Virus record (IMG/VR): IMGVR_UViG_3300010354_000904
Location: 1-20,087 of that record
DNA from: a virus
Strand: one strand, 5' to 3'
Length of the DNA: 20,087 bases
This document shows, in pieces, positions 1,497 through 5,809 of this stretch. How positions within the stretch are numbered: the stretch's first letter is position 1; the number at the start of each line of letters is the position of its first letter. The notes beneath the pieces are model-generated. The model saw only the letters and a program-made list of their open reading frames with translations, was not told where the DNA came from and made no database searches. The position numbers and the translations under genes were made by a program.

Positions 1497-2842
1497 GCCT
1501 GCTAGCCGGCATTGTTGAACCCGGCAAACTGCTTGGGTTTATGGATGTTGCTACGCAGGAAGACACAGGCGATCTGCTCAACCGCATTCGCGCTGACCTG
1601 CACCCAGGGCAGCTTGCATTTGTCGATGACACTGCAACAGAGATCATTGGCATCTCAGCTGGCTACGGCGCCGGCAAGACACGTGCGTTGTGCGCTAAGG
1701 CTGTAATGCTGGCCGCGGCCAATCAGGGCTTCATCGGCGCAGTGATGGAACCCACTGGCCCATTGATCCGTGACATCTGGCAGAACGATTTCGAGAACTT
1801 CCTGGAGGCATACGACATCCCCTACACCTTCAGGGCTAGCCCGCTGCCGGAATACATGTTGCACCTGCCAGGCGGTGACACCAAAATCCTGTGCCGTAGC
1901 TTCGAGAACTGGAGCCGCATCATCGGCTTGAACCTTGCATGGGTGCTGGCTGATGAGATCGATACGGTGACGCCAAGCATTGCCAACAAGGCATTTCCCA
2001 AGATCCTTGGCCGCTTGCGCTCCGGCAATGTCCGCCAGTTTGGTGCTGCATCTACACCAGAGGGCTTCCGCTGGATGTGGAACACCTTCGGCAGTGAGGA
2101 TGCCAAAGGGCGTGCGGATCGCAAGCTCATCAAGATGCGATCAGCGGATAACCCGCACCTGCCGCCGGACTTTATTGAGCGCCTGGAAGCCAACTACGAC
2201 CCCAACCTGTTGCGGGCCTATCTCGATGGTGAGTTTGTCAACCTCACTACGGGCACCATTTACGACCGCTTCAACCGCGAGAAGCACGTCGTATCAGAGC
2301 TGCCTGACCTTGACCGCGAGCCATTGCGCATTGGCGTTGACTTCAACATTGGCAACATGTCCGCCATCATCGGTGTCCGCACCGGCAGCAGCCTGCTAGT
2401 GATTGATGAGATCAGCGGCGCCCATGACACCGACGCATTGGCGCACGAAATCCAGGCGCGTTACCCGCAGCGGCGTATCTACATCTACCCAGATGCCAGC
2501 GGCGGCAACCGCAGTACTAACGCAAGCCAGACCGATATTCAGATCTTGGAGTCCTACGGCATGTCCAACCAATCACCGCGTGCCAATCCTCCCGTCCGTG
2601 ATCGCGTGGCTGCTGTTCAGGCTTTGCTGGAAAACGGCAAGGGCCAAGTCAGGCTCACCATTCACCAACGCTGCAAACGGCTGATCGAATGCCTAGAGCT
2701 GCAGTGCTACACCGACAAGGGCGACCCTGACAAGGATGCCGGGCATGACCACATGAATGACGCACTGGGTTACTTGGTCTGGCGTGAGTTCAACCCGCTC
2801 CATGCCGGCGCTGGACGCACGACCGGAATCCGCCTTTACTGA
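1493..2842 (+). CDS. Terminase large subunit (packaging ATPase and nuclease)
   Basis: This 449-residue protein has both terminase domains. The ATPase part shows Walker A SAGYGAGKT (residues 55-63), Walker B WVLADE (150-155) with the catalytic acid, and the coupling motif AASTPEG (185-191). The nuclease part shows the RNase H-like acids GVDFN (D283), YPDASGG (D334) and HDHMNDALGY (D423). It powers DNA translocation into the prohead through the portal and cuts the concatemer. The length is typical of the family. The start is GTG overlapping the small-subunit stop. The gene ends in a 7-base tail-to-tail overlap with the small minus-strand gene at 2836-2979. Confidence 0.95.
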   Translation: MSLLAGIVEPGKLLGFMDVATQEDTGDLLNRIRADLHPGQLAFVDDTATEIIGISAGYGAGKTRALCAKAVMLAAANQGFIGAVMEPTGPLIRDIWQNDFENFLEAYDIPYTFRASPLPEYMLHLPGGDTKILCRSFENWSRIIGLNLAWVLADEIDTVTPSIANKAFPKILGRLRSGNVRQFGAASTPEGFRWMWNTFGSEDAKGRADRKLIKMRSADNPHLPPDFIERLEANYDPNLLRAYLDGEFVNLTTGTIYDRFNREKHVVSELPDLDREPLRIGVDFNIGNMSAIIGVRTGSSLLVIDEISGAHDTDALAHEIQARYPQRRIYIYPDASGGNRSTNASQTDIQILESYGMSNQSPRANPPVRDRVAAVQALLENGKGQVRLTIHQRCKRLIECLELQCYTDKGDPDKDAGHDHMNDALGYLVWREFNPLHAGAGRTTGIRLY

Positions 2843-2979
2843 GCACCCTGCCTGAGCGCAGCCTCAATGAAGAACGAGCCAAGGCTTGAGACGGTGCGAC
2901 CCTCAGCCTTGGCCTTTTGCTTGAGAAGCGCTGCTACCGCTACTGGCAGCACCACCTGGACCCGGACACCTTGCGCCAT
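2836..2979 (-). CDS. Small ribbon-helix-helix-like protein
   Basis: Read on the minus strand from ATG at 2979, this encodes 47 residues (MAQGVRVQVVLP ... SSLGSFFIEAALRQGAQ). A basic beta-strand-like start (VRVQVVLP), a helix rich in Ala/Lys, a turn with GRTVSS and a second helix (FFIEAAL) match the CopG/Arc ribbon-helix-helix pattern of small dimeric DNA-binding repressors. An upstream extension of 26 codons is open, but the pattern begins at this Met. The gene faces against the late operon, and its upstream region holds inverted repeats (2997-3041) that could be its operator. It could act as an autoregulator or as a moron-type gene. No strong ribosome binding site is seen. Confidence 0.6.
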   Translation of the reverse strand: MAQGVRVQVVLPVAVAALLKQKAKAEGRTVSSLGSFFIEAALRQGAQ

Positions 2980-2998: not shown

Positions 2999-3041
2999 TT
3001 GCGGAGGATCGAACCCGATCCGCACACACCGTACCGCAAAT
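2997..3041. promoter_or_regulatory. Nested inverted repeats, candidate operator
   Basis: Two inverted repeats are nested between the divergent small gene and the HNH gene. The outer arms are ATTTGCGG (2997-3004) and CCGCAAAT (3034-3041). The inner arms are GGATCG (3006-3011) and CGATCC (3016-3021), separated by AACC. The outer right arm runs into the HNH start codon. Such symmetry beside a ribbon-helix-helix-like gene fits an operator. In RNA the same repeats could fold and occlude HNH translation. Confidence 0.4.
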
Positions 3042-3519
3042 GGAGGATTATTACCAATCAGCAGCATGGCAACGCAAACGCCAGCAGCGCCTTGACCACG
3101 ACCAGCACACCTGCCAAGGCTGCGGCATCACTGCCGCGCAATTAGCAGAGCTGGGTTGGCCATCACTGCAGGTTCACCACAAGAACGCTGGACCGCCGGA
3201 CTACCGTTACCCATCGTTTGGCAACGAGCAACTCACGGATCTTTTGACCCTGTGCTCTATTTGCCACGACGGCATTACCAATTCAGTCAGGCAACAGCGC
3301 TTCAAGTTGGACCCACGCAAGCAGGTGGCATCAGTCAGCGTTGCAGCGCCATCACTTTCTGTCCCCTTATCAACGAACCAACGTGTCCAACCTCAGTACG
3401 ATCCAGATCACAATTTCGGGCGAGTCTCCATTGCTGTGCCACAACGGGCAAACAGCAGATCCGCGAAATACCTACGCCAAGGCGATGAAGGCGGTGTCGA
3501 GCAAGCGGAAGAAAACTGA
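3040..3519 (+). CDS. HNH endonuclease
   Basis: The 159-residue product starts MEDYYQSAAWQRKR, the usual opening of phage HNH enzymes. It carries paired zinc ligands CQGCG (C25, C28) and CSICH (C72, C75), the catalytic VHH (H46-H47), the NEQL asparagine region (N62) and H76. This is a complete metal-dependent nicking or cutting module in about the first 80 residues. In HK97-like phages an HNH protein near the terminase is needed for cos cleavage and packaging, and position suggests the same here, though a homing enzyme is possible. The region after residue about 100 has no recognisable motif and overlaps the next gene in another frame for 137 bases, so this tail may be unconstrained. Confidence 0.85.
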   Translation: MEDYYQSAAWQRKRQQRLDHDQHTCQGCGITAAQLAELGWPSLQVHHKNAGPPDYRYPSFGNEQLTDLLTLCSICHDGITNSVRQQRFKLDPRKQVASVSVAAPSLSVPLSTNQRVQPQYDPDHNFGRVSIAVPQRANSRSAKYLRQGDEGGVEQAEEN

Positions 3520-3979
3520 CGCTGACTACGACGAGATGGCAAGGCTTGAATGGCTTGCTGGCTTGTACCGCTTCCGCGATGAGCTGGTTATCCCCGACTA
3601 CGTGCTCGAAGCGGTGTTTATCAACGGTGCCAAGAAGTCAAAGCGTGGCCCGCAAGCCAAGTGCGGCATGTTCTTCACTGAGCACGCACCGCTTGAGTTT
3701 CCTGGCAAGCCTGCTGAGATCAACGATGACACGCTTAGCGAGATGTTCGCTAGCGGTGAGTTCACCCACACTGTCGGAGTGAAGGTCGGCATGGCAAAGG
3801 TCATGCGCACCCGCCCGATGTTCCGCCACTGGAGCCTCAAGGCAACTGCGCAGTTTGACCCTGACGTGCTCAATCTGCGCGACATCGAAGAGATCGCCGT
3901 TGATGCTGGCAAGCTGGTCGGCCTAGGCGACTGGCGACCCAAGCATGGGCGATTCAGCACTGGCATCCTTGCGGTGTAA
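3383..3979 (+). CDS. Conserved phage protein of unknown function next to a 5-base-periodic array
   Basis: From GTG at 3383 the product has 198 residues (a TTG at 3341 gives 212). I chose GTG because IQITISGESPLL then falls at the N-terminus, as in similar phage proteins I recall with an N-terminal strand ending SPLL/TPLM. Other visible features are DADYDEMARLEWLAGLY (residues 46-62), KVMRTRPMFRHWSL (139-152) and a Gly-rich end GLGDWRPKHGRF (180-191). Alternating strands and helices with a Gly-rich C-terminal loop are reminiscent of RRM or RAMP (Cas7-like) folds, but this is speculative and no function is established. No ribosome binding site is evident, and expression may be coupled to HNH translation. 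Its stop codon is followed at once by the periodic element 3980-4320. Confidence 0.75.
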   Translation: MSNLSTIQITISGESPLLCHNGQTADPRNTYAKAMKAVSSKRKKTDADYDEMARLEWLAGLYRFRDELVIPDYVLEAVFINGAKKSKRGPQAKCGMFFTEHAPLEFPGKPAEINDDTLSEMFASGEFTHTVGVKVGMAKVMRTRPMFRHWSLKATAQFDPDVLNLRDIEEIAVDAGKLVGLGDWRPKHGRFSTGILAV

Positions 3980-4064
3980 GTCCAGGTGTGGTGAGACCGG
4001 GCTGGGACTGGCGGGATCAGACGAGAAAGGGCAAGCTAAGGTCCGGCATGGGCTGATTGATCTC

Positions 4065-4092
4065 AGCGCTGAGGGCTTCGGCCCTCTCCGCT
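4065..4092 (+). other. UUCG-capped hairpin inside the periodic array
   Basis: GAGGGC (4071-4076), loop TTCG and GCCCTC (4081-4086) form a perfect 6-bp stem with a stable tetraloop. AGCG (4065-4068) and CGCT (4089-4092) extend it beyond a 2x2 internal loop. It resembles a terminator stem but lacks a T-run. It coincides with the first break in the 5-base pattern. Confidence 0.7.
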
Positions 4093-4202
4093 GGGTTCTT
4101 TGGAATCCAGATTTGGTCTGTCAGGTTAGGGACAGGAAGGTTACGGCAAAGCCGGTTGTGGTCGGGATTAGTGAGTCAGGGACAGGCAAGGACTGCAGAC
4201 GG

Positions 4203-4245
4203 CAGTACGGAGGGTTATCCCTCCCTACTGTTCTCTTGGGAACAG
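4203..4245 (+). other. Two overlapping, mutually exclusive hairpins inside the array
   Basis: CAGTA (4203-4207) pairs with TACTG (4226-4230), and GGAGGG (4209-4214) pairs with CCCTCC (4219-4224) around a TTAT loop with one C-C mismatch. A second stem, CTGTTC (4228-4233) with GAACAG (4240-4245), shares bases 4228-4230 with the first, so the two compete. They fill the second break in the 5-base pattern. Confidence 0.6.
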
Positions 4246-4311
4246 GCCTGGTTTGGTGGTTTAGGGTGAGTTCTGTTAATGCGTGGCTGGGCACGGCTAG
4301 CCGAGGCTCTC

Positions 4312-4337
4312 AAGGGTTTGGGTAACACCAAACCCTT
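4312..4337 (+). terminator. 10-bp hairpin closing the array, possible terminator
   Basis: AAGGGTTTGG (4312-4321) pairs perfectly with CCAAACCCTT (4328-4337) across a 6-base loop, followed by the weakly T-rich TTAAACTTT. This could be a rho-independent terminator or a processing/3'-end stem for an array RNA. It lies 26 bases before the portal start, where I see no convincing new promoter, so full termination would isolate the portal gene. A partial terminator or RNA-end structure is more likely. Confidence 0.45.
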
Positions 4338-4363: not shown

Positions 4364-5809
4364 ATGTACTCAGGTTTTGGCTTTTACGATCGACCCATTG
4401 CGCAGCGCAAGGTAACGCGCGTCCAAGACCCAAGCACGTCTTGGTACGCAATGGAACCGCATTGGATGCTCATTGAGGATCTACTGCAAGGCACTTATCA
4501 AATGCGCAAGCGCCATAGGCGTTATCTGCCGCAAGAGCCGAGAGAGTTAGATGAAAGTTATGATAATCGACTTGCTAGAAGTGTTTGCCCGCCTTACTAC
4601 GTCCGATTGGAGCGCATGTTAGCAGGGATGCTTACCCGCAAACCAGTCAGGCTCGACGATACGGCGGATGTAATCCGTGAGCAGCTTTTTGACGTAAATC
4701 TTTTGGGCGATGATTTAAATGTTTGGACATTCGACGTCACCCGCAAGATGGTGCGTTATGGCCACGTTGGTGTACTGGTGGATGCACCGGCTGATGGGGG
4801 TCGACCCTATTGGGTGAGCTACACGCCACGGCAGATCCTTGGCTGGCGTGCTGAGCAGCAGGAAGGTCGGCAGGTGTTGACGCAACTGCGGTTGGCTGAG
4901 ATCGTCAACGTGCCTGATGGCGAGTTTGGCGAAAAGGCAGTTGAGCAGATCCGCGTGCTAACGCCAGGTGAGTATCAACTGCATCAGAAGCAAGACAACG
5001 GTGACTTCCAGGTAATCGACGAAGGACGCACTAGTCTTTCTAAGATTCCATTCTCAGTCGCCTATGCGCAGCGCCATGGCTTTATGGAGTCACGCCCGCC
5101 GTTGGAGGATATCGCCGAGTTGAACCTTAAGGCATATCAAATCCAGAGCGACCTCGACAACCAGCTGCACATCAGCGCTGTGCCGATGCTGGCGTTCTAT
5201 GGCTTCCCGTCTGCAGCAGAGGAAGTCAGCGCTGGTCCCGGCGAGGCGATTGCATTCCCCGCAGAAGGGCGTGCAGAATATATCGAGCCTCAAGGCCGCA
5301 GCTTTGACTACCAGTTCCGCCGCCTAGAGCAGCTTGCAGCGCAGATCAACGAGCTAGGGCTATCGGCAGTGCTCGGCCAGAAGCTATCCGCTGAAACCGC
5401 CGAGGCAAAGCGCATTGATCGCAGCCAAGGCGACAGCACCATGATGGTGATTGCGCAAAACGTGCAGGACATGATCGACAACTGCCTGCAGTTTCATGCG
5501 CAATACATCGGCAACAACACCGCACCAGGCAGCAGCTACGTCAACCGTGATTTCCTAGGCACACGCCTTGAACCGCAGGAAATTCAAGCTTTACTACAGC
5601 TTTACACGGCTGGCACCATTACGCAGGAGACTTTGCTGCGTGAGCTTGCTGAGGGTGATGTTTTAGGTGATGACTTTAACGTAGATGAGGAGCTTGAGGC
5701 TACGGCCAATGCGGGGCTTGATCTACCATTTGCTGGACTGGATAACCGATCGACTAGTGGATCTGATGATCTGGATGGAACCGAGGAAGCCGAGGAAGCA
5801 GGAGCTTGA
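4364..5809 (+). CDS. Portal protein (DUF4055-like)
   Basis: This 481-residue protein is predicted to form the dodecameric ring at the prohead vertex through which DNA enters and to which the connector binds. Supporting segments are RMLAGMLTRKPVRL (about residues 83-96), the GHVGVLVDAP turn (about 133-142) and PYWVSYTPRQILGWR (about 147-161), which match the DUF4055 portal pattern as I know it. The acidic tail (DDLDGTEEAEEAGA) overlaps the next small gene. An imperfectly placed inverted repeat TGACG-gtg-CGTCA (4352-4364) ends on the A of the start codon, and no Shine-Dalgarno sequence precedes it, so start use may depend on upstream RNA structure. The position after terminase and before MuF is classical. 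Confidence 0.88.
   Translation: MYSGFGFYDRPIAQRKVTRVQDPSTSWYAMEPHWMLIEDLLQGTYQMRKRHRRYLPQEPRELDESYDNRLARSVCPPYYVRLERMLAGMLTRKPVRLDDTADVIREQLFDVNLLGDDLNVWTFDVTRKMVRYGHVGVLVDAPADGGRPYWVSYTPRQILGWRAEQQEGRQVLTQLRLAEIVNVPDGEFGEKAVEQIRVLTPGEYQLHQKQDNGDFQVIDEGRTSLSKIPFSVAYAQRHGFMESRPPLEDIAELNLKAYQIQSDLDNQLHISAVPMLAFYGFPSAAEEVSAGPGEAIAFPAEGRAEYIEPQGRSFDYQFRRLEQLAAQINELGLSAVLGQKLSAETAEAKRIDRSQGDSTMMVIAQNVQDMIDNCLQFHAQYIGNNTAPGSSYVNRDFLGTRLEPQEIQALLQLYTAGTITQETLLRELAEGDVLGDDFNVDEELEATANAGLDLPFAGLDNRSTSGSDDLDGTEEAEEAGA

Follow-up and report, generated by a model that had tools for sequence, protein, structure and literature searches.

A predicted VIPR guide array with a linked HNH endonuclease gene in a phage related to cyanophages

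The window analysed here is the whole stretch of 20,087 nucleotides of a viral contig (IMG/VR record IMGVR_UViG_3300010354_000904), whose genome is that of a phage related to cyanophages. Upstream of the terminase genes, positions 128-1168 encode a DNA polymerase sliding clamp (DNA_pol3_beta). The cassette described below consists of a small CopG-like gene, an HNH gene, vipr and three pentamer arrays with structured tails, and the portal gene lies directly downstream (Table 1).

Table 1. Features of the cassette and of the adjoining portal site, in window coordinates
Feature	Position	Strand	Remarks
CopG-like ribbon-helix-helix (RHH) gene	2836..2979	-	47 aa; divergent from HNH-vipr; Pfam RHH_5 E=2.2e-13
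HNH endonuclease gene	3040..3519	+	159 aa; overlaps the vipr start by 137 nt
vipr	3383..3979	+	198 aa, GTG start; RAMP protein predicted to carry guides
vrRNA guide 1	3980..4049	+	14 pentamers; first unit GTCCA common to most relatives (leader); target not found
3' tail of guide 1	4050..4109	+	three consecutive hairpins; fold z=-3.2; covariation in 22 homologous tails
vrRNA guide 2	4110..4189	+	16 pentamers; target not found
3' tail of guide 2	4190..4244	+	long hairpin with alternative pairing; fold z=-2.9; covariation
vrRNA guide 3 (last slot)	4245..4304	+	12 pentamers; predicted to decode to the portal gene of relatives
Terminal tail	4312..4337	+	10-bp hairpin, then T-rich sequence; fold z=-3.7
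Own-portal site for guide 3	4700..4735	+	1-nt-skip match with mismatches, 20/24 (relatives 21/24); skipped base is codon position 3

The HNH gene precedes and overlaps vipr in every clade locus that extends that far. Among terminase-portal intervals it is present in 6/6 with Vipr and absent from 129/129 without Vipr. Its product matches PHROG HNH families (E ~4e-9), with a Pfam HNH match below the cut-off, and is a candidate vipr-accessory (vap) nuclease. In 52 of 63 VIPR-positive loci the RHH gene lies upstream of HNH at a distance of 61-173 nt, and among portal/terminase loci it is confined to the VIPR-positive ones. The small protein encoded by it is probably a regulator or an accessory protein of the cassette. 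The empty insertion site of relatives is found between abrB and the portal gene. In loci L006-L081 the terminase-portal interval differs in length from locus to locus (for example 6, 375, 894 or 1118 bases) and frequently contains an abrB-like gene; such variation suggests a hotspot of cargo insertion.

Directly downstream of vipr, G recurs every five bases. The counts given in an earlier note on this DNA were reproduced exactly: the pentamers end with G in 16/16 units over 3976-4055, 16/18 over 4106-4195 and 13/16 over 4241-4320, that is 45/50. The period-5 power of G in the periodogram is 35.3 over 3976-4320 and exceeds all 10,000 shuffles, with maxima of 8.9 (5,000 mononucleotide) and 9.1 (5,000 dinucleotide); the second-best 345-base window anywhere in the sequence reaches 5.3. 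The signal ranges from the TAA at 3977-3979 to the terminal hairpin, and the first array base directly follows this TAA, as had been described. What was taken for one element of 340 bases is actually three separate arrays with structured tails between them. Their offsets in the window (3, 133 and 268) are each 3 mod 5, which agrees with the claim that the phase never slips; the common phase is nevertheless accidental in this contig, as relatives lack it (offsets of, for example, 3, 137, 265 and 390). An Rfam search of the element gave 0 matches above the gathering score, phage records showed no DNA similarity to it and a simple promoter scan no match, while a tandem-repeat scan found no identical CRISPR direct repeats with contiguous spacers. 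Loci L115 and L138 show an extra period-5 G signal that precedes the vipr end by about 1.1-1.25 kb, and another is seen upstream of vipr in L145 (1681-1751).

The gene upstream of the arrays is predicted, by profile search and structure modelling, to encode Vipr, a protein of Csm3-like RAMP fold. The profile search against solved structures gave a single match, 36pp ("SUSP1 Vipr protein", E=1.2e-81), and the product falls in phrog_4652 (function unknown in PHROG, E=6e-48). Pfam and PADLOC returned nothing, and NCBIfam only insignificant matches. The AlphaFold model of the window Vipr has a pLDDT of 93.6, and its best Foldseek matches are Csm3 and type VII Cas7 chains. The Csm3/Cas7-like RAMP fold polymerises on guide RNA. 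The early suggestion that each pentamer contacts one subunit of a filament was therefore close to right, as the adjacent protein is such a RAMP. Of 62 viral contigs examined, nearly all have period-5 G arrays next to a vipr homologue. The vipr relatives of Felixounavirus, Gordonia, Mycobacterium and Pseudomonas phages are likewise accompanied by such arrays, with a weak signal in the Pseudomonas case, so that the earlier mention of similar tracts beside related genes in other phages was correct. At the same locus of related phages, the array is kept where vipr is present and is absent where vipr is absent. The remark that no function had been assigned to such tracts is outdated by the description of VIPR in a 2026 preprint (PMC13142463). 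According to the main text of that preprint, VIPR comprises a RAMP protein and guides of alternating GGY/NN, by which DNA is read with a one-base skip; the systems of phage SUSP1 and of a Pseudomonas fulva prophage act by repression, on either strand and without a nuclease. The preprint sorts VIPR into seven classes.

Over 44 loci of the clade, the unit matrix shows G (0.91), G (0.76) and C/T (0.95, no G), followed by two positions at 1.96 and 1.98 bits. The earlier view that the other four bases vary thus holds for the last two, which are near-random, and fails for the rest of the GGYNN unit. The window units follow this pattern less strictly than the clade as a whole, with the second G in 28/44 and Y in 36/44, which counts against the assignment as a VIPR array; their numbers per guide (14, 16 and 12) lie within the 9-16 GGY/NN repeats of the VIPR criterion. 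For decoding, 146 guides were extracted and their NN pairs were matched against about 2.9 Mb of phage loci. This target set centres on portal, terminase and vipr genes, and in the first-fetched loci the predicted arrays had been masked. With a skip of one base, 20 guides score 19.0-25.5 while 278 shuffled guides reach 17.0 at most, and the best natural targets in the clade match at up to 24/24. Contiguous (skip 0) and skip 2 decoding gave maxima of 18.5 and 18.0, with only isolated near-limit values above the shuffles. Skip 3 decoding also yields high scores, which we read as putative matches to unmasked homologous arrays. The skipped base falls on the codon wobble position in most matches with a clear gene frame, on either strand. 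By computation, the clade analysis supports the published 1-nt-skip rule in another phage group, giving the noncontiguous guide code of 2026 separate backing and supplying over a dozen natural guide-target pairs.

The tails between the arrays show covariation. Among 22 aligned tails, 8/11 pairs vary on both sides and 100% of the cells are paired. The tail element B (GCAGC) is complementary to both the preceding and the following element, with covariation in each pairing; this double pairing of one segment concerns the A3 tails, in the window those at 4050-4109 and 4190-4244. Since the two pairings are mutually exclusive, the tail may switch between a precursor form and a mature form. The last hairpin with its T-rich stretch (4312-4337) is a probable terminator by prediction, and is not among the results of a simple terminator scan. 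The array separators of Gordonia and Mycobacterium phages carry a TTCGANT loop resembling the tRNA T-arm (L145, 2980-3027 and 3095-3145; L147, 4703-4757 and 4853-4900; L148, 4210-4270 and 4327-4380) and might recruit tRNA-processing enzymes; ARAGORN on these actinophage tails gave no complete tRNA and one partial call. In phage wV8 the 58-base repeats annotated as DR_4 (L149, 3259-3316 and 4652-4709) fall inside the vrRNA array and tail, and several copies of the GTGCAGACGTCTGCAC palindrome are found after the arrays in L144 (5400-5560).

Guide 3 of the window, with the NN series CT TT GG AG GA CT AA GT TG AC TA GA, reads as directed to the portal gene of sister phages without the cassette, adjoining the cassette site. 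It matches the relatives' portal at 23-24/32 and its own portal, at 4697, at 22/32, and 0/3000 shuffles match the portal equally well. The guide is a drifted form of the L085/L087 guide, and its 21/24 in most relatives, versus 23/24 for L085/L087, counts against this assignment. Targets of guides 1 and 2 were sought in four scans of viral contigs, with no or only chance-level matches, which also counts against it; 386 genomes of the cyanobacterial phylum likewise contained no target. Little weight can be given to the lack of targets elsewhere in the genome, because the database is centred on portal, terminase and vipr.

Across the clade, targets are concentrated in the last slot. Among loci with a visible array end, 19/38 last-slot guides have a target at a score of at least 17.5, compared with 4/100 guides of other slots (Fisher p=1.6e-9, the related loci being not fully independent). 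On the window-type backbone, within the about ±5 kb of the relatives covered by the search, the last-slot guide matches portal nt 58-372 of cassette-less relatives in 14/16 loci, and internal-slot guides have no match in that portal region. The last-slot targets group in about six site families. A second backbone shows matches in the terminase gene, about 300 nt upstream of HNH, for two last-slot guides (L112_159 and L109_234) and one slot-1 guide (L140_39); the targets of L112_159 and L140_39 lie about 93% along the terminase gene.

The flank of the cassette is also distinctive. Cassette-bearing phages are like cassette-less ones in terminase and abrB, and divergence is limited to the portal 5' end. 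Their portals start at 71-76% identity and several regain at least 95% within 60-150 nt; cassette-less control portals are flat, near 96%. The L094 portal shows 71-78% at the start and then 96-100%, and compared with L088 its first 120 nt are 98% identical and positions 240-480 are 78% identical. This divergent 5' end appears to be a transferred flank that either homing or ordinary recombination could have moved. Cassette-less portals fit a bearer's guide better than the bearer's own portal does. Selection for self-escape is not supported by this alone, own portals being comparably divergent at many other windows (fraction at least as divergent as the own site, 0.06-0.55).

We conclude that the region is most probably a guide array of three vrRNA guides belonging to a phage-encoded VIPR system (probability about 0.92). 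On the features that can be tested computationally, namely the protein, the GGYNN unit, the tails, the code and the accessory gene, VIPR membership is secure. Vipr would coat the guide RNAs, each subunit gripping one GGY anchor and presenting the NN dinucleotide that follows. Together, these dinucleotides would read double-stranded DNA as NNxNNx, with the skipped base on codon wobble positions. Each of the three pentamer tracts would be one guide, closed by its structured tail. By analogy we infer that the ribonucleoprotein assembles and binds target DNA in vivo. The pattern of targets suggests that the last guide would attack the portal gene of co-infecting cassette-less sister phages, either by a block of transcription or by cutting via the linked HNH protein, with the bearer's own portal as the poorer match. 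The last-slot pattern fits competition with kin.

What such an attack would consist of admits two accounts. The last guide may steer the HNH protein to the gene flanking the empty site in cassette-less sister phages, where repair would copy the cassette together with a piece of the portal 5' end. Such RNA-guided homing extends the VIPR reading and is not an exclusive alternative to it; if true, it would mean that a mobile cassette spreads with the help of RAMP-based RNA guidance. The strict linkage of HNH to Vipr and the aim of last-slot guides beside the insertion site speak for it, as do the terminase matches upstream of the HNH gene on the second backbone. A site about 93% along a gene is poor for repression and is likewise counted for homing. 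The divergent portal flank of bearers, with a 5' end shared by L094 and L088, is expected too, but ordinary homologous recombination of the cassette with one flank gives an equal footprint, and own-site mismatches are not clearly above the own portal's divergence elsewhere. Cleavage of the target by HNH is a prediction, and the SUSP1 and P. fulva systems, in the main text of PMC13142463, repress without a nuclease. We regard homing as possible, at somewhat less than even odds. In the other account, the guides only block transcription of competitors' essential packaging genes, with HNH as a passenger or in another role. This is also a tentative reading that falls a little short of an even chance: repression of targets on either strand is published (PMC13142463, main text) and the portal 5' end suits a roadblock, but the position of the target beside the cassette's insertion point in two backbones and the strict HNH linkage are left unexplained.

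Self-regulation, in which guide 3 would regulate the portal gene of its own phage, is improbable. The portal directly downstream holds the 20/24 site, but relatives match equally or better, and for L085/L087 the own site ranks near the bottom of 112 portals (19/24 versus a median of 22). Stacked two-tetrad G-quadruplexes, the other half of the earlier interpretation, or a purely structural G-rich RNA can be dismissed as extremely unlikely: GG recurs every five bases in most units, but the second G is missing from 16/44 window units, it is GGY that is conserved, the two variable bases decode to targets, and the arrays are linked to a RAMP protein. That interpretation is thus supported in its filament part only.

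As a VIPR guide array, the region can be compared with four known systems. TRAP-binding RNA carries (G/U)AG every five bases. The array shares with it the five-base period of G contacts, but here there is no conserved A, the protein fold is another and the variable bases are informative. In free-standing (intronless) homing endonucleases, such as SegF of phage T4, the nuclease gene adjoins a site that is intact in relatives, and the flank of the bearer is divergent. The cassette likewise has a nuclease gene beside the target site of cassette-less relatives and a divergent flank in the bearer, whereas site recognition would be by guide RNA and cutting is hypothesised. With class 1 CRISPR-Cas (Csm3/Cas7) it has in common the RAMP fold, guides between conserved structured elements and periodic skipping of target bases. 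It differs in the pentamer code inside the guide, in skipping every third target base where CRISPR skips every sixth, and in that no other cas genes were recognised among the few neighbouring genes examined. The closest likeness is to the VIPR systems of SUSP1 and P. fulva as described in the main text of PMC13142463: the Vipr family, GGY/NN pentamer guides of similar length, structured 3' tails, the 1-nt-skip code with the skip on the wobble position, the location in phages and the phage targets. Differences from these systems, again relative to that main text, are the overlapping HNH nuclease as an accessory together with the divergent RHH gene, another tail structure, and a terminal guide aimed at a cassette-flanking gene. 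Its HNH and RHH genes, its type of tail and the targeting by the last slot set the cassette apart as a distinct VIPR variant relative to the main text of PMC13142463, beyond which it adds a constant overlapping HNH gene, a usual RHH gene, predicted last-slot targeting of the portal and a divergent portal 5' end.
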